This document shows positions 24-57,001 of a stretch of DNA of 64,000 nucleotides, piece after piece. This stretch comes from an uncultured Psychroserpens sp. (GTDB lineage Bacteria > Bacteroidota > Bacteroidia > Flavobacteriales > Flavobacteriaceae). The number at the start of each line of letters is the position of its first letter. The first letter of the stretch is position 1. The stretch spans positions 186,001 through 250,000 of the forward strand of contig CANKZZ010000004.1 of the NCBI GenBank assembly GCA_947488655.1, written 5' to 3'. The notes under the pieces are model-generated. The model saw nothing but the letters and a program-made list of their open reading frames with translations, was not told the origin of the DNA and searched no databases. The translations under genes were made by a program, and so were the position numbers.

Positions 24-731
24 TTAATAGTTTTTATGTTTAAATAAAATATTGGTATAAATTCCCATCTTTTTTCTGTGCACCAATGGGTAAATCGATA
101 CTAACTCAAAATCTTTTTTTATGACATAATCCCAAAGTTCAGTAAATTTAGGCATGTCTTTATGCCCATTGACAAAACGGGCTTCAAAAAATAGTAGTCC
201 AACTTTCTCTTCTGCGAAAGACTTCTTTGAGCCTTTAAAAACTTCTAATTCAAATCCCTCTGTATCAATTTTTAGCACGTCAATTTTTTTAATGCCATTG
301 GTTTTAGAGAAAGAATCAATTGTAGTTGTTTTTACAGATGTTTTCTTTATAAAACTACTAGGATCGTCATCGTGAATATCCAAAAAAGAATTTGTGTTTG
401 AGTGTTTGTACTCGTTTAATAACAATTCTCCATTTGAGGCACCTACACCTAAATTCCATAAGTGTAAATCCTTAATATTTGAAGTATTGTTTTTTAGAAT
501 TTTAAACGTATCAGGACTAGGCTCAAAAGCATGAATAGTACAGTCTTTAAATACTTCTTTAAAATCTTTAACCGTTTGACCAACATTTGCTCCAACATCT
601 AAAAATAAAGGATTTGTAGAATTAACAAATTTAGCCATATCATAAAATGGATAAACGCCCATTTCATTTTCTTTAAATTTGATAATATCAAAACCAAACT
701 TTCTTGATATCTTCCTAATAGCTCTTTTCAA
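24..731 (-). CDS. FkbM family methyltransferase
   Basis: This is a 235-residue SAM-dependent methyltransferase of the FkbM family, which commonly O-methylates sugars in polysaccharide clusters. The SAM-binding motif LDVGANVG lies at residues 44-51, the acidic ribose-binding strand HAFEPS at 67-72, and the family motif KIDTEGFE at 154-161. The length is normal for the family. No signal peptide or membrane segment is seen, so it should be cytoplasmic. The start is TTG at 731. It is divergent from the glycosyltransferase run to its right, with 213 bases between them, so it may end a second operon that lies to the left. The target sugar cannot be inferred. Confidence 0.88.
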   Translation of the reverse strand: MKRAIRKISRKFGFDIIKFKENEMGVYPFYDMAKFVNSTNPLFLDVGANVGQTVKDFKEVFKDCTIHAFEPSPDTFKILKNNTSNIKDLHLWNLGVGASNGELLLNEYKHSNTNSFLDIHDDDPSSFIKKTSVKTTTIDSFSKTNGIKKIDVLKIDTEGFELEVFKGSKKSFAEEKVGLLFFEARFVNGHKDMPKFTELWDYVIKKDFELVSIYPLVHRKKMGIYTNILFKHKNY

Positions 732-944
732 TTAAAATTGTTTTGTTACCCAATTTAAATTAAAAATCAATATCATTTTAATAAATTATAATAAAACTGA
801 TTAATTTTCTCATGCCTTAAAGAAAATAATTGCTCAAATCGACATTAGAATGGTTAAAATCGACTTACGATTTTAAAGTTGCTTATTATCTATGAATACT
901 TTGAATTTTCTATATTGCAAATTCATTAATGCGTGTTATACCTT
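732..944. other. Divergent intergenic region with a 7-bp inverted repeat
   Basis: This is the only intergenic DNA between the reverse-strand methyltransferase and the forward glycosyltransferase run, so promoters for both should lie here. A perfect inverted repeat AAAATCG (856-862) and CGATTTT (868-874) with a 5-base spacer is visible. It could be a hairpin or an operator. TTG at 916-918 followed by a TATACCTTTTG-like stretch near 937 resembles a loose -33/-7 pair, but it would overlap the proposed start, so I do not call a promoter. Confidence 0.3.
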
Positions 945-50944: not shown

Positions 50945-51142
50945 AATAATTTGATTTTATTTGTGACCTTTTTAAAATCTAAAATGGTCATATGCTAGCA
51001 ATATGTTTTAACAAAAATAGTTTTAAAATCTATTCATTTAATCTGAAATTTTAACATTTTAGTGTATTTCGTCGAATATTTAATACATTTAATCGATAAT
51101 TTCTTTGTTTGTTGTTAAAACTAATCTACATTTACGTCGTTA

Positions 51143-51503
51143 TTGAAATTGTGATTTTTTTACAATTAAATATTTGGCCCCAAGCCTATGAAACAAATTT
51201 ACCTACTTAGAAGCAGAAATATCTGCAATGTTATGTTATCTCATTCCTTAGTTCTGAATTTTCAGAATTCCAAGAATTTTATAGCTTAATTTCGTTTTAC
51301 CAACTGGTAAGTAAGCTTTCATATTATTTTCTCAATATCTAATTAATCCAAAAAATACTTTTCGTAATAGCGAAGTATTTTCCCTCATTATGCTTTACTG
51401 ACAATTGTTAGTAAAGGCATAACATTTGAATAGCATTTTTTAAAAAACAAAGTAAGGGAATTTACTAAACCTATGATGCCGACACATCATTAAAACTACT
51501 ATT
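51143..51503 (+). promoter_or_regulatory. Long hairpin-rich leader of the large T9SS protein (copy 1)
   Basis: The 559-base gap before the gene holds no gene but a set of elements shared with the gap at 55962-56191. In order: an AATTGT/ACAATT inverted repeat (51147-51152, 51162-51167); a TATTTGG box, then GGC/AGCC (51171-51186); a 9-bp hairpin AAAATACTT/AAGTATTTT (51352-51381) followed by TCCCTCA; a long stem TTATGC-TTTACT with AGTAAA-g-GCATAA (51388-51422); GGGAATTTACTAA; and a stem ATGATG/CATCAT (51473-51490) 13 bases before ATG. Copy 1 also has extra hairpins between 51210 and 51315. It looks like a structured 5' leader. No known riboswitch class was recognised. Confidence 0.6.
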
Positions 51504-54500
51504 ATGAAAGCTACTAACAATTTTGGAAGACCTACTATTGCAAAATTACTTGTATTAATTATCATCTTTTTGTTTAACACTATTGCAGTGTTTGCTCAAG
51601 AAGCTCCTGCAGCAGCAGCTTCTACATCTCCTGGTAACGTACCCAACAGTTTAGAATTGTGGATGAAGGCAGGATCTGGTACAAGTACGACTGTTAATAA
51701 CCAAAAGGTTTCAAGCTGGTTAGATAATTCTCCAAATGCTTTTTATGTAGAAGATGGACTAGATGGAAAAGGTCCTAGATACGTTAATAACGCTATTAAC
51801 TTTAATCCTGCATTAAAATTTACTAGAAGTGGTGGTGAGTATATGAAGATACCTTTAGCAGCTGTTACTGGTACAGGTCTAGATGTAACACCTTCTCCAG
51901 CAGCAGGTATTTCTAATCCTTCTAGTATGTCAATTTTTGCTGCTTTTTTAACAGATCAAAGTGGAGCAGGTACCATACTTTCTCGAGCAACAAGTAGTTC
52001 TAGAAGTTACCAATTATGGCTAGGCGATAGAGATCGTGTAGTGCATTATACTTTAGGGCGAACATCTGGTACAGGTCAAAGTCACCCAGATAGTGGGATT
52101 AACTACGGAATAACACATGCTAGAAATGATCCAAAAATTTCATCTTTAGTTGTAGATATTTCTGGTGCGTCTATGGCTAATGACCCTAATGAAGCTACAG
52201 GTAAAATAAAAAAATACGTTAATGGTTATTTAGACCCATTAACAACTTATACAGATGGTGATGCTGGTTTTGGTACTGGACAAACTACTAATATGGATGT
52301 GACTATTGGAGCTCGAAGAAATTCTAATAACACTAATGTTGGTAATTTATTACAAGGTAATGTTGCCGAAATTATCGTTTATGATAGAGCTTTGACTGCT
52401 CTAGAAAGACAACGAGTTGAGACTTATATGGCCATAAAATATGGAATAACCTTAGGTTATAATGATGAGTATTATAAATGGGAAAACTCACCAAATCATA
52501 CAACTACTTTTGGATACTCTGGAACCAGTAATGATTACATTCTATCTAATAACTCTCATGCGTGGACAGGATCTAGTAATGCTGGATTTGGTTATAATGT
52601 CTTTGGTATTGCTAGAGATGATAATTCAGGATTATTACAACTTAAATCTAAAAGTGTACACGTAGCCGAAATTACTAAAGAAACGTCTGTTTTAACTATG
52701 CAGGATGAATCTAATTCTATAGCTAATGATAGAAGTTATTTACTCGTTGGAAACAATGGAGCTAATATTCAATTTAAAACCTCTGGAGTGCCTGAGCGTG
52801 TGAATAGTACAATTAACAGAGTTTGGAAAGCAAGAAAAAGTACAAATGATGTAGGTTCTATTAGATTAGATTTTGACTTAAGTCAATGGAATCTTTCTGG
52901 AAGTAGTGATTTAGAAATGATAATATCAGACAATAGTAACTTAACGAATTATAAAAATGTTACTGGTACTTATAATTCAAGTACAAAAACCATGACGTTT
53001 ACCAATCTTAATTTAGAAGATGGAGAGTATTTTACGCTAGCTAAATTACAAGAGATGGATGATTCGTATCATTTTAATTTTGATGGATCATCAACTTATG
53101 TAGACTTAGGTGATAATTTTAATATCAATTCTTCAGGTTTTACAATTTCAGCATGGATAAAAAGAGATGCTACTTCTGGAGATCGTTCGATAGTATCTAA
53201 GAGAAATAATAATAACTCTCAAGGTTTTGATTTTAAAATAAACTCTGTTGGTAGATTAGTTGCAACCTGGAGAACGAGTTTAGGATTCTATCAAACTATT
53301 AATACATCTACAATTATACCGGTAAATGAATGGCATCATGTTGCTGTTAGCTATAATGGTGTACGAGCTTATTTATATATAGATGGCGTTGAAGCCAAAA
53401 ATGCTATTAAAGCACAACCAGGTTCGAGTAATAATCGATTGTTAGTTGGTGCATCTGGAAATACTCCTGGTAGATTTTTTAATGGAGATATTGATGAGGT
53501 TCGTATTTGGAATACAGATTTAACTGAGTCTCAACTTAGATTTACAATGAATCAAGAAGTTGAAAATAAATCTAATAAAGTAGTAGGAGCATTTTTTGAA
53601 AAAAGAAATATAACACCTACTAACAATGATATTGCTACTTTACCTTGGAGTAGTCTAGAGTTATATCTTCCGTTTTCGCATGTAAGAGGTAATTGTTTGT
53701 TTAATAAATCATCTTTTACATCTGTAAATGGTAGATTATACAATACACCAAATAGTGCTATTGATACACAAACTGCACCATTACCTTATAAGTCTTCTCA
53801 AAACGGAAATTGGGATACTAAATCGTCTTGGTCAAATGGTAATATTCAAACCTTACCTGGAGCAAAATCTTTGGTTAACTCTTCGATATCTGTAGATTGG
53901 AATATTGTACAAACGTCACATAATTTAACAATGAACAATAATAATATTACTTCTAAAAACAGGAAGTTATTAGGTCTGTTTGTTGATGCCAATAAAATTA
54001 CTTTAGAAGGTAATAATACATCCAAAACAGGTAATGGTTTAACGATAACTCATTATTTAAGTTTAGATGGTAAACTCGATTTACAAGGAGAATCTCAACT
54101 AATACAAGAAGAAGGAAGTGATTTAAAGGTTTCTAGTTCAGGCTCATTAGAAAAAGACCAGCAAGGTACAAGAGATATGTTTACCTATAATTATTGGTCT
54201 TCGCCTGTTGGGCAAACAAGTACGACTTCTAATAATACAAACTATGCTATAAATGCAGTTTTTAAAGATGGTACAAATCCAAATGTAGCACAAAATATAA
54301 ATTTCGTAACAAATAGTTATAATGGTAGTGCAGGTAATCCAATTACTATAGCAGATTATTGGATTTGGAAATTTGCCAATCAACCAGATGACACCTATTC
54401 TGCTTGGCAACATGTAAGAAGTACTGGAAGTTTAAAACCAGGTGAAGGATTCACAATGAAAGGTGTTACAAATACTGCTGGTAATGTAGGCTTAGAACAA

Positions 54501-55679
54501 AATTACACATTAAGAGGAAAACCTAATAATGGTGACATAACACTGCCTCTTACCGCAGGAAATGATTATTTAATTGGTAATCCTTATGCTTCTGCAATAG
54601 ATGCTCATGCATTTATTCTAGATAATGCTCCAACAATAGAAGGAGGAGGTAATACTACAGGTACCTTATATTTTTGGGAACATTGGGGAGGAGGATCTCA
54701 TGTGTTGGCAGAATATCAAGGTGGTTATGCAACATACAATTTATCTGGAGCAGTACCAGCAGCTGCTTTTGGTACACCAGATCCTGATGTTGATCAAAGT
54801 ACACTTATTGGCACAAAGTTGCCAGGACGATATATACCAGTGAGTCAAGGATTTTTTGTTGTAGGAGAAAATACTGGTACAATTAGATTTAAGAATAGCC
54901 AACGTATTTTTATGTCTGAAGCCAATAACTCATCAACTTTTATGAGAAATGATAGTACAACATCAGGTGCTGAGGATACTGATGAAGAAGGCGATACACG
55001 TATGAAAATTGGATTAAAATTTAATTCGGTTAGTACTTACACAAGAAAAATATTGGTTACTGCAGATGAAGATGCTACAATGGGCTATGATTGGGGTTAT
55101 GATGCAGAGTTATATGATAATCAAGCAGATGATATGTATTGGTTAATAGAAGATGGTAAATATGTAATACAAGGTGTTAACGCACTTAATATTGAAACAG
55201 TATTACCGTTAGGCGTGCATACATCATCTGGTGGATCTAATACAATTTCAATAGATAAGTTAGAAAATATACCAAATACAATGGATATTTTTCTTCATGA
55301 TATAGAATTAGGTGTATTTCATAATCTAAAAGAAGGTGATTATAGTTTTACTGCAGCAGCAGGTCTTCATTTGGAACGTTTTAGAGTGGTATTTAATAAT
55401 GAAGATACTTTAAGTGTTGAAACTACCGACTTAGAAACAGATATTTTAAACATTCTTTATGATAAAGATAAAAAGCAAATAGCCATATTAAATCCTCAAA
55501 ATTTAAGTATTGAAGGTTACGAAGTGATAACATTACTAGGCCAAAGTATAATTGAGTCTAACGATTTAACTACTGTAGATGAACTACGATTAGATACAAA
55601 ATTATTTAGTGCAGGAGTTTATGTAGTAAATGTAAAAACCAATAAAGGAAAGATCTCAAAGAAAGTTATAGTTAATTAG
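51504..55679 (+). CDS. Large T9SS-secreted protein with LamG-like domains and type A sorting tail
   Basis: This is a 1391-residue surface or secreted protein. The signal peptide is 1-31 (LLVLIIIFLFNTIAVFA). A LamG/concanavalin-like domain spans about 45-315, and a further beta domain (YYKWENSPNHTTTFGYSG onward) about 320-510. A second LamG domain spans about 520-690 (FNFDGSSTYVDLGDNF, VNEWHHVAVSYNGVRAYLYIDG). A glycine/Asn-rich stalk follows. A module at about 1160-1310 is shared with the neighbouring protein. The last 80 residues are a type A T9SS sorting domain (LSIEGYEVITLLGQ, FSAGVYVVNVKTNKGKISKKVIV). It is probably an adhesin or polysaccharide-binding protein. Confidence 0.88.
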   Translation: MKATNNFGRPTIAKLLVLIIIFLFNTIAVFAQEAPAAAASTSPGNVPNSLELWMKAGSGTSTTVNNQKVSSWLDNSPNAFYVEDGLDGKGPRYVNNAINFNPALKFTRSGGEYMKIPLAAVTGTGLDVTPSPAAGISNPSSMSIFAAFLTDQSGAGTILSRATSSSRSYQLWLGDRDRVVHYTLGRTSGTGQSHPDSGINYGITHARNDPKISSLVVDISGASMANDPNEATGKIKKYVNGYLDPLTTYTDGDAGFGTGQTTNMDVTIGARRNSNNTNVGNLLQGNVAEIIVYDRALTALERQRVETYMAIKYGITLGYNDEYYKWENSPNHTTTFGYSGTSNDYILSNNSHAWTGSSNAGFGYNVFGIARDDNSGLLQLKSKSVHVAEITKETSVLTMQDESNSIANDRSYLLVGNNGANIQFKTSGVPERVNSTINRVWKARKSTNDVGSIRLDFDLSQWNLSGSSDLEMIISDNSNLTNYKNVTGTYNSSTKTMTFTNLNLEDGEYFTLAKLQEMDDSYHFNFDGSSTYVDLGDNFNINSSGFTISAWIKRDATSGDRSIVSKRNNNNSQGFDFKINSVGRLVATWRTSLGFYQTINTSTIIPVNEWHHVAVSYNGVRAYLYIDGVEAKNAIKAQPGSSNNRLLVGASGNTPGRFFNGDIDEVRIWNTDLTESQLRFTMNQEVENKSNKVVGAFFEKRNITPTNNDIATLPWSSLELYLPFSHVRGNCLFNKSSFTSVNGRLYNTPNSAIDTQTAPLPYKSSQNGNWDTKSSWSNGNIQTLPGAKSLVNSSISVDWNIVQTSHNLTMNNNNITSKNRKLLGLFVDANKITLEGNNTSKTGNGLTITHYLSLDGKLDLQGESQLIQEEGSDLKVSSSGSLEKDQQGTRDMFTYNYWSSPVGQTSTTSNNTNYAINAVFKDGTNPNVAQNINFVTNSYNGSAGNPITIADYWIWKFANQPDDTYSAWQHVRSTGSLKPGEGFTMKGVTNTAGNVGLEQNYTLRGKPNNGDITLPLTAGNDYLIGNPYASAIDAHAFILDNAPTIEGGGNTTGTLYFWEHWGGGSHVLAEYQGGYATYNLSGAVPAAAFGTPDPDVDQSTLIGTKLPGRYIPVSQGFFVVGENTGTIRFKNSQRIFMSEANNSSTFMRNDSTTSGAEDTDEEGDTRMKIGLKFNSVSTYTRKILVTADEDATMGYDWGYDAELYDNQADDMYWLIEDGKYVIQGVNALNIETVLPLGVHTSSGGSNTISIDKLENIPNTMDIFLHDIELGVFHNLKEGDYSFTAAAGLHLERFRVVFNNEDTLSVETTDLETDILNILYDKDKKQIAILNPQNLSIEGYEVITLLGQSIIESNDLTTVDELRLDTKLFSAGVYVVNVKTNKGKISKKVIVN

Positions 55680-55703
55680 TTAGTTTTTTAAATTATGTCA
55701 GCA

Positions 55704-55735
55704 AAAAAGGCTGCCTCTTCGAGGTAGCCTTTTTG
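55704..55735 (+). terminator. Intrinsic terminator of the large T9SS protein gene
   Basis: The stem is AAAAAGGCT-g-CCTC (55704-55717) with GAGG-t-AGCCTTTTT (55721-55735) and a 3-base loop. It lies 24 bases after the stop. Confidence 0.88.
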
Positions 55736-55961
55736 TGTTTATTACGTTTTTTATTTGCACAAAATATGTACTAGTTTAAAAAAGACTTAAAAAGAGCTTT
55801 TATATTGATAATAGGCTGTTTGTGAGACGTATATCTTGTAAATAAATAGTGTGCACATTAACGAGATTATTAACCTTTTTGTTCTCTTAAACGAGTATCT
55901 AATGCAAATTGGCGAGTTTATAATCTATCAAGTGTACTTTGGATTTACCTTTGGAAATGTA

Positions 55962-56191
55962 TTGATATTGTAGTATTTACAATTAAATATTAGGCTCTAA
56001 GCTTTTGAAATTTATTATCCATTTAAATTTCATAATATAATGTCAATACAAAATTAATCCACAATACTTTTCATAAGCAAAGTATTCTCCCTCAAGTGTT
56101 TAAAGACTTAAGTCTTACGAAGCACAATTAACATTTTACAAAAAGAGAATTTAACTAAGCAATGATGCTCGTCATCATTAAACCTACAAAT
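55962..56191 (+). promoter_or_regulatory. Hairpin-rich leader of the small T9SS protein (copy 2)
   Basis: This is the shorter homologue of the leader at 51143. It has an ATTGT/ACAAT inverted repeat (55967-55971, 55979-55983), then AATTAAATATTAGGCTCTAAGC. An AATACTTT/AAAGTATT hairpin (56063-56070, 56079-56086) is followed by TCCCTCA. Next comes a different central stem with the palindrome AAGACTTAAGTCTT (56103-56116). GAGAATTTAACTAA follows, then AATGATG/CATCATT (56161-56179), 12 bases before ATG 56192. The central stems differ in sequence but keep position. The stretch 55736-55961 before it shows no gene or clear signal. Confidence 0.6.
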
Positions 56192-57001
56192 ATGAAAACT
56201 ATGGAAAGATTTTTACTTAACACGATTAACAAATTATCATCGGTAACTTTTATTTTAATATTGAGTACCACATGTTTATTTGCAACTAACCCATCAACTA
56301 CAGCTGAAGAATCAGATCAAAGAATGAAGATTAGTTTAAAGCTAAATTCGGCTGGTACTTATGAAAGAGAATTGTTTGTTTTAGCAGATGAGTCTGCAAC
56401 TGCAGGTTATGATTCTGACTTTGATATAGAAATTGATAATGTACAATCAGACGATATGTATTGGTTAATTAATTCTGGTAAATATACAGATCAAGGAATT
56501 AATGAGTTTGATGAAGAAACTATTATTCCTATTGGATTACATACCGATACTAATGGATATAACACTATATCTATTCATAAAATAGAGAACATACCAAATA
56601 CAATGAAAATATTTGTATTTGACAATCAAACAGGTGAGTACCATAGTTTAAAAGAAGGTTCATTTGAAGTGTACTTAAATGCAGGTGTGTATTTAAATAG
56701 ATTTGAAATTGTATTCTCTCAACCAGAAACTTTAAGTACTACAGAGTTTCAAGCAAATGAAAATCAATTAGATATTCGTTTTGATTATGCTACAAAAAGT
56801 ATAGAAGTTATAAATACAGCGAATTTAAAAATCGAAGACATTAATGTGTATTCACTTTTAGGACAATCTGTTTATAAGTCTAATAAATCAAATACAGATA
56901 ATACGGTTAGTATTAACACAAATTCTATGAGTACAGGTACTTATATTGTTATAGTAAATACTAAAAATGGTTTTACTTCAAAGAAAGTTTTAGTTAATTA
57001 G
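56192..57001 (+). CDS. Small T9SS-secreted protein sharing the C-terminal module of its neighbour
   Basis: This protein of about 269 residues has a signal peptide (INKLSSVTFILILSTTCLFA). A beta-rich module (RMKISLKLNSAGTYERELFV, DDMYWLINSGKYTDQGIN, NTISIHKIENIPNTMKIFV) aligns with residues about 1160-1310 of the 1391-residue neighbour. It ends with a type A T9SS sorting domain (LKIEDINVYSLLGQSVYKS, SMSTGTYIVIVNTKNGFTSKKVLV). An upstream ATG at 56162 lies inside the ATGATG arm of the leader hairpin. By comparison with the neighbour's leader, ATG 56192 is the true start. It is probably a duplicate of the cargo's terminal module that became a separate gene. Confidence 0.82.
   Translation: MKTMERFLLNTINKLSSVTFILILSTTCLFATNPSTTAEESDQRMKISLKLNSAGTYERELFVLADESATAGYDSDFDIEIDNVQSDDMYWLINSGKYTDQGINEFDEETIIPIGLHTDTNGYNTISIHKIENIPNTMKIFVFDNQTGEYHSLKEGSFEVYLNAGVYLNRFEIVFSQPETLSTTEFQANENQLDIRFDYATKSIEVINTANLKIEDINVYSLLGQSVYKSNKSNTDNTVSINTNSMSTGTYIVIVNTKNGFTSKKVLVN

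Follow-up and report, generated by a model that had tools for sequence, protein, structure and literature searches.

Introduction

In translational riboswitches, the expression platform hides the ribosome site. Leaders of the ompA type in Escherichia coli stabilize the mRNA of a surface protein; they carry one helix at the very 5' terminus and a further stem ahead of the start. In this study, we describe two long 5' leaders that precede two tandem genes for cargo of the type IX secretion system (T9SS) in a 64,000-nucleotide (nt) stretch of DNA from an uncultured Psychroserpens sp. of the family Flavobacteriaceae (assembly GCA_947488655.1, contig CANKZZ010000004.1, positions 186,001 to 250,000; this whole stretch is hereafter the window). 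Like the translational riboswitches, these leaders have an upstream folded domain followed by a switch hairpin predicted to pair either with itself or with the start; unlike them, they show no known aptamer or Rfam match, occur in one genus before two genes, and would cover the start codon instead of a Shine-Dalgarno sequence. They share with the ompA-type leaders a surface-protein mRNA, a predicted extreme 5' helix, and a stem upstream of the start, but are longer, have several domains, and contain a strand complementary to the start codon.

The mRNAs of this phylum are described as having no Shine-Dalgarno sequences, and initiation in Flavobacterium johnsoniae as tuned partly by structure near the start, an effect that the authors call subtle in the part of their paper used here (PMC6847099). 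For Flavobacterium psychrophilum, also a member of the Flavobacteriaceae, 64 structured 5' untranslated regions (UTRs) have been listed, some of them without an Rfam match; the genes named in the portion of that source consulted are pheA, hisG, ftsY, acsA, alaS, and rimP (PMC9723704), which differ from those studied here. Flavo-1 (RF01705) is likewise an RNA motif of Bacteroidetes, and a table of 104 candidate RNAs includes Flavo-1 and others from this group (part of PMC2864571). Among the titles listed by literature searches on T9SS, none reports post-transcriptional control of its cargo, and a search for untranslated regions of Psychroserpens found nothing.

The sequence comparisons described below indicate that the leaders are a real, conserved family of structured cis-acting RNA, restricted to Psychroserpens and located at a tandem T9SS-cargo gene pair. 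As for their function, folding predictions make it roughly an even bet that the leader hides the start codon, which would be sequestered by the apical strand of a hairpin, P4, in an mRNA whose 5' end is sealed by a long-range helix, P1.

Results and Discussion

Organization of the leaders

All features described here lie on the plus strand. Gene 1 (51504-55679) encodes a protein of 1391 amino acids with a Laminin_G_3 domain and a Por_Secre_tail stretch that scores just below the cut-off (23.7 of 27 bits). Gene 2 (56192-57001) encodes 269 amino acids, counted from the conserved start; it is akin to the C-terminal part of gene 1, and its Por_Secre_tail domain reaches 33.9 bits against a cut-off of 27. 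Each of these tandem T9SS-cargo genes is preceded by a long intergenic leader, of about 365 nt for gene 1 and about 234 nt for gene 2. A preliminary description of this DNA had recognized both leader regions, which are real, but had begun each of them 4 bases too late because the 5' end of P1 was missed; the leaders start at 51139 and 55958.

Relatives were found by DNA search in the same genus. A covariance model of the 3' half of the leader (R1), built from 24 leaders, detected 27 leaders in 14 of 23 Psychroserpens genomes. There are two in each of 13 genomes, where both sit at the same tandem gene pair, and one, at a single gene, in G015. The earlier proposal of a conserved, structured cis-RNA upstream of two T9SS-cargo genes is thus borne out.

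Read across the 27 leaders, the order is P1, Pa, a GGC hairpin, P2, AATTAATCC, P4, TCCCTCA, P5/P6, P7, and ATG. P1 is a long-range helix that joins the very start of the leader to the bases just 5' of AATTAATCC, and P2 is formed by TATGAAA and TTTCATA. An insert with further hairpins is found in the gene-1 leaders and in the gene-2 leader of G001. In the 3' part, P6 is followed by GGGA or GAGAA, P7, a short A-rich stretch, and the ATG. Direct reading confirmed that all of the ordered elements originally proposed are present in both window leaders, those of leader 2 following one another as in leader 1, at 55968-56179. The GGC hairpin is missing in the gene-2 leaders of G018 and G010, and P5/P6 is missing in the gene-1 leader of G037 (L087). 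In the latter leader, the P4 strand complementary to the start has been lost as well and the start context is altered (ATGGAA), which makes it a natural variant for comparison.

Evidence for base pairing

Each helix was tested by comparing the pairing of its own arms with that of arms exchanged among leaders of the same gene, after three near-identical rows had been dropped. Since the arms were hand-picked from the same sequences, and the swaps keep the subfamily and not closer kinship, random windows served as a guard: 250 random window pairs gave a mean z of -0.2 (standard deviation 1.1, 1% quantile -2.6), and the single far outlier among them (z -5.9) falls in P6 itself. Six helices pair better inside a leader than across leaders; the random windows as a group do not. 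When all parsed rows were used, the observed pairing was matched by none of 5000 swaps for P1, Pa, P4, P6, or P7 and by 1514 of 5000 for P2.

P1 (z -4.7, 24 leaders) is formed in leader 1 by 51139-51146 and 51332-51339, with a T.T mismatch at 51140/51338, and in leader 2 by 8 base pairs (bp) between 55958-55965 and 56043-56050. Hairpin Pa, the ATTGT/ACAAT dyad (z -4.4, 22 leaders), lies at 51147-51167 and 55968-55987; in leader 1, the dyad together with AATTAAATATT was read directly at 51147-51175. It is followed by the nearly invariant GGC-CCCAA-GCC mini-hairpin (51176-51186) and by the 5' strand of P2, TATGAAA (51187-51193), whose letters are identical to the start-codon context. The 3' strand of P2, AGCTTTCATA (51314-51323), can form 10 bp with 51503-51512 in the start region of gene 1, to which it is complementary. 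P2 gave no sign of covariation (z -0.4, 22 leaders), nor did P2b, P3, ins2, or the AAGTAA hairpin; P2 and the AAGTAA hairpin hardly vary. The insert hairpin GCAG/CTGC (51213-51226 in leader 1), seen in leaders of the gene-1 type and in one gene-2 leader, had a z of -3.0 (14 of 5000 swaps, 13 leaders).

The second half of leader 1 opens with the conserved AATTAATCC (51341-51349), between P1 and P4. The P4 hairpin (AATACTT/AAGTATT; z -4.0, 24 leaders) lies at 51354-51379, followed by TCCCTCA, and at 56063-56086 in leader 2. P5, in which TCCCT or TTCTC would pair with AGGGAA or GAGAA, is suggestive only (z -1.7, 225 of 5000 swaps, 22 leaders); in leader 1, TTCCCT at 51380-51385 could pair with AGGGAA at 51455-51460. 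P6, the central long stem, is the best supported helix, with a z of -6.8 in 18 leaders (20 of the 27 before near-duplicates were dropped; the seven unparsed leaders include leader 1 of the window). It was placed at 51388-51422 in leader 1 by direct reading and folds, the helix itself being supported in other leaders, and at 56095-56126 in leader 2. The earlier claim that this stem keeps its fold while its bases change therefore holds. P7, the near-start stem ATGATG/CATCAT (z -3.5, 24 leaders), occupies 51473-51490 and 56161-56179 and ends 13 and 12 nt before the ATG, respectively.

An upstream ATG occurs at most 40 nt before the start in all 27 leaders, usually inside P7 (51473-51478 in leader 1, 56162-56167 in leader 2); the open reading frames (ORFs) that begin there differ in both length and frame. 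The upstream ATG of window gene 2 shares the frame of the gene, so automatic ORF calls begin at 56162.

Each of the 27 leaders has a lower folding energy than its 12 dinucleotide shuffles have on average (z -3.8 in the mean, from -0.6 to -7.6). In tool-made alignments, cells with both sides of a pair changed numbered 14 against 5.0 in shuffles (24 leaders) and 6 against 2.9 (9 leaders); in the 9-leader alignment, pairs with a change on both sides were no more numerous than in shuffles (3 against 2.5). Two points weigh against the structural interpretation. The 27 leaders are homologues and not independent, and our own R-scape-like all-pairs covariation test with a tree-based null found no significant pair among these 27 sequences, which are strongly split between gene 1 and gene 2. 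The covariation proposed as a check in the preliminary description is hence seen in the helix-wise tests and absent from the all-pairs test.

Predicted pairing of P4 with the start codon

Reverse complementation of the start region CUAUUAUGAAAA gives the conserved apical strand of P4, UUUUC(A/G)UAAUAG. Of the 324 cells compared in a fixed register over the 27 leaders, 290 pair. Opposite the U of AUG, 16 leaders have A in this strand, 9 have G, and 2 have U, and the outermost two pairs vary (A-U 19, U-A 2, U-G 1; G-U 10, G-C 7, A-U 7). The folding predictions leave bases -3 to +6 unpaired with a mean of 0.16 in the leaders, as against 0.43 in shuffles (5 per leader) and 0.47 to 0.61 in 41 other window genes, depending on the assumed UTR length; openness below 0.2 is predicted for 20 of 27 leaders and for 0 to 2 of the 41 other genes. 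In 21 of 27 leaders, at least 0.7 of the predicted start pairing comes from P4, and in 16, P4 outranks every other stretch of the leader as a partner for the start. Deletion of P4 in silico raises start openness to 0.44, whereas deletion of an equal piece beyond P4 leaves it at 0.16. A run of at least 9 pairs across the A of AUG is present in 20 of the 27 leaders, compared with 126 of 1134 combinations with the starts of other genes. In gene 2 of G012, both sides have changed and still allow 10 bp. A similar compensatory change considered for gene 2 of G017 was rejected, since U opposite the U of AUG is a mismatch in the fixed register.

The window itself contains both situations. In leader 2, TTTTCATA (56068-56075) is complementary to the start region 56191-56198 over 8 bp, and P4 gives 0.71 of the predicted start pairing. 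In leader 1, the apical strand TTTTCGTAATAG (51359-51370) can form 12 pairs with 51499-51510, an alternative that accounts for 0.10 of the predicted start pairing; 0.73 comes from the 3' strand of P2, a pairing for which no covariation was seen (z +1.2).

Several results count against start-codon pairing by P4. Its covariation is moderate (z -2.5, 46 of 5000 swaps; 284 of 20000 swaps in the fixed register), and these values are not corrected for relatedness. AT-rich ATGAAA starts pair with P4 generically, at a mean of -5.8 kcal/mol, compared with -5.0 for all other starts and -9.0 for a leader's own start; when P4 was compared with the starts of 42 other window genes, 25 of 27 leaders had at least one that pairs equally well. 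In the folds, six leaders use P4 little or not at all, namely those of gene 1 in G000 (the genome of the window), G004, G007, G017, G037, and G015. Over the wider region from -12 to +12, openness falls little below that of shuffles (0.46 against 0.52).

It had been suggested that the stem 12 to 13 bases before the ATG gates ribosome entry. That stem, P7, is real, but in the folds it leaves the start codon uncovered, and the predicted partner of the start is P4; P4 is therefore more likely than P7 to be the gate, if the models are right. In the proposed mechanism, the apical strand of P4 would pair with the start-codon region and hide the AUG. The inner stem of P4 and the start pairing share bases, so a closed P4 would free the start and an opened P4 would hide it, and the two mutually exclusive states would correspond to a translation-on and a translation-off form of the mRNA. 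As the phylum works without Shine-Dalgarno pairing, we infer that such control would act on the start codon itself. The balance between the two forms might be shifted by a ligand, by a protein, or by the order of folding, or might not be shifted at all.

AU-rich helices over the start could also suggest an RNA thermometer opened by warmth. Psychroserpens includes cold-water species. However, start openness predicted in silico is nearly flat between 5 and 37 °C (0.13 to 0.16), with no opening of the start, and we regard a thermometer as highly improbable.

Predicted promoter and transcript 5' end

Upstream of each leader lies a -7 box, TACATTTA at 51127-51134 for gene 1 and TACCTTTG at 55946-55953 for gene 2. 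The box reads TAnnTTTG before all 13 gene-2 leaders; before those of gene 1 it is TAnnTTTA or TAnnTTTG, and at the expected place in G015 it is absent. Its end precedes the first P1 base by exactly 4 nt in 21 of 27 leaders and by 3 to 5 nt in 26. In F. psychrophilum, the corresponding box spans -12 to -5, and the median 5' UTR is 24 nt (PMC9723704); the Psychroserpens leaders are long by this measure. From the spacing and this box position, +1 was placed on the first base of P1, and the two coincide in 21 of 27 leaders; in the window, +1 would be 51139 and 55958. Transcription is thus predicted to start on the first base pair of P1, and the 5' end of the mRNA would be sealed. Transcript starts downstream of the hairpins, named beforehand as the finding that would speak against a cis-RNA, are not what the box predicts, the box-based +1 being upstream of all hairpins.

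In the 25 parsed leaders, the first P1 pair is G-C in 20 and U-A in 3 and is unpaired in 2, and the second position is U.U in 11, U-A in 5, A-U in 4, G-C in 3, U-G in 1, and U.C in 1. Folding was computed from 2 nt before P1, and the first 10 nt are predicted to be unpaired at 0.27, against 0.59 in shuffles. This arrangement brings in a different explanation, an mRNA stabilizer of the ompA type, in which a 5' end paired from its first nucleotide would hinder 5'-end-dependent decay and give long-lived surface-protein mRNAs, the start pairing being a by-product of AT-richness. The placement of the predicted +1 on a mostly G-C first pair, the closed 5' end, and a homologue of RNase E/G encoded in the genome agree with it, as does the hindrance of RppH and RNase E by 5' structures that is described in part of PMC3997798. 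However, a stabilizer would not account for the unpaired motifs that are nearly invariant, the apical strand of P4, or P7, and a start codon predicted to be closed should lower translation. We give this explanation a minor though appreciable chance. A sealed 5' end would also fit a role in mRNA stability that is additional or alternative to start-codon sequestration.

Both promoters are preceded by CGA repeats at 30 and 21 bp spacing. In gene 1 they lie at 51073-51096 (CGA at 51073 and 51094, 21 bp apart), and in gene 2 at 55862-55915 (CGA at 55862, 55892, and 55913). Of the 27 leaders, 26 have CGA at -67, 21 at -46, and 17 at -97. The same array, free of mismatches, stands before a lipoprotein-like gene of 145 amino acids (G000:C3:568071-568126; L125, L127) with a predicted UTR of 23 nt. 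A weaker match with 2 mismatches precedes another large gene (G000:C10:156-181; L126); it is followed at about 210-360 of L126 by a leader of about 150 nt containing TACTT-CCCTC-AAAGTA, a possible hairpin with a CCCTC loop that recalls TCCCTCA. The operator pattern search gave 3 matches and its reversed-pattern control also 3, and a second search gave 42 against 359 for the control; because the controls did as well or better, only the mismatch-free match before the lipoprotein-like gene carries weight. Judged by sequence, the CGA array is a possible activator operator with a small regulon.

If the dyad and boxes were operator and promoter, the whole region might act mainly at the DNA level, with the remainder a passive 5' UTR. 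The common operator-like array with its -7 box, and its recurrence before a gene with so short a predicted UTR, are in line with that possibility. The comparison of G-U with A-C cells as a strand test, a weak one, is unsettled in P4/P6/P7 (G-U 18 against A-C 23, or 18 against 13 without one pair), but favors RNA in P1/Pa/GGC/P2 (15 against 6). Moreover, the array and the -7 box sit upstream of the leader, and pairing is preserved in five helices that lie 3' of the predicted +1. We therefore hold a purely promoter-level role to be very unlikely.

Distribution and relation to known RNA families

A search of Flavobacteriaceae genomes with covariance models, as had been suggested, located the leader in Psychroserpens and did not show it to be family-wide; a decayed copy in another genus turned up among exact 18-mer matches. 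Among 397 sampled genomes of the family (237 genera), R1 gave 3 matches, all in Psychroserpens. R2, a model of the 5' half built from 9 leaders, gave the same 3 Psychroserpens genomes and 3 weak matches in other genera; both scans were run with stricter filters, by which weak matches are lost. The three matches outside the genus (G276, G077, and G091; E 0.013-0.084 each) were treated as chance, as the two that were inspected both lack GGCCCCAAGCC. Besides Psychroserpens contigs, the 18-mer GGCCCCAAGCCTATGAAA occurs in one contig labelled Algicola, one Arcticiflavibacter luteus contig, and four contigs from other phyla; it was found in no viral contig. The four exact matches in other phyla were rejected as leaders, since R1 finds nothing there up to E 10. 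In A. luteus (L098, about 560-830, minus strand), a decayed copy that has lost P4-P6 stands before an ORF of 52 amino acids (404-562, minus strand) with a signal-peptide-like start, and this ORF adjoins one of 187 amino acids that by reading resembles the OmdA-type gene of the window. The gene 2 protein family is more widespread, with matches at E 1e-30 in 103 of the 397 genomes. Given this narrow distribution against a wider cargo family, the leader looks young and bound to this gene pair.

Within the leader-bearing genomes, R1 gave no further match at E 0.1. A third DNA match in the window's own genome (L003; 39 nt at 85%) lies within apparent coding sequence, and no R1 leader is found there. 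One or two copies per genome, in tandem, are not the dispersed multiple copies of a mobile or repeat element. The copy number also bears on whether the leader is a binding platform, in which the single-stranded GGCCCCAAGCC loop, AATTAATCC, and CCCTCA would be the site for an RNA-binding protein or small RNA controlling both genes. These three motifs vary little, beyond what pairing needs, as a binding site would; on the other hand, the genomes hold no further leader copy to reveal a regulon. We consider a platform of this kind unlikely.

At Rfam gathering scores, no match was found in the window or in six related loci, including none to the Flavo-1 covariance model, and up to E 10 there was no plus-strand match in either leader. 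The initial impression that the leaders match no riboswitch was thus correct as far as Rfam is concerned. Leader-peptide attenuation is not supported. The ORF that opens at the ATG in P2 is not conserved: 6 of the 27 leaders lack it, and in the others its length ranges from 2 to 38 codons. In neither leader was an intrinsic terminator with a U run found; the sole terminator-like match, at 51213-51226, has a mixed tail.

Conclusion

Taking start-codon sequestration as the working explanation, the RNA would begin at the first base pair of P1, and P1 would close an upstream domain (P1-P2) that either senses a factor or merely stabilizes the mRNA. The leaders might then represent a new riboswitch-like RNA class for bacteria without Shine-Dalgarno sequences, in which a P1-closed sensor domain controls the pairing of the P4 switch hairpin with the start codon and so sets surface-protein output; we advance this extension only tentatively and think it more doubtful than the sequestration itself. 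How translation is controlled in Bacteroidota without Shine-Dalgarno sequences is an open matter, for which a leader that carries a conserved strand antisense to its own start provides a compact test case, with natural variants that keep, shift, or lose the start pairing. If the proposed mechanism is true, it would mean that T9SS surface cargo is under post-transcriptional control.

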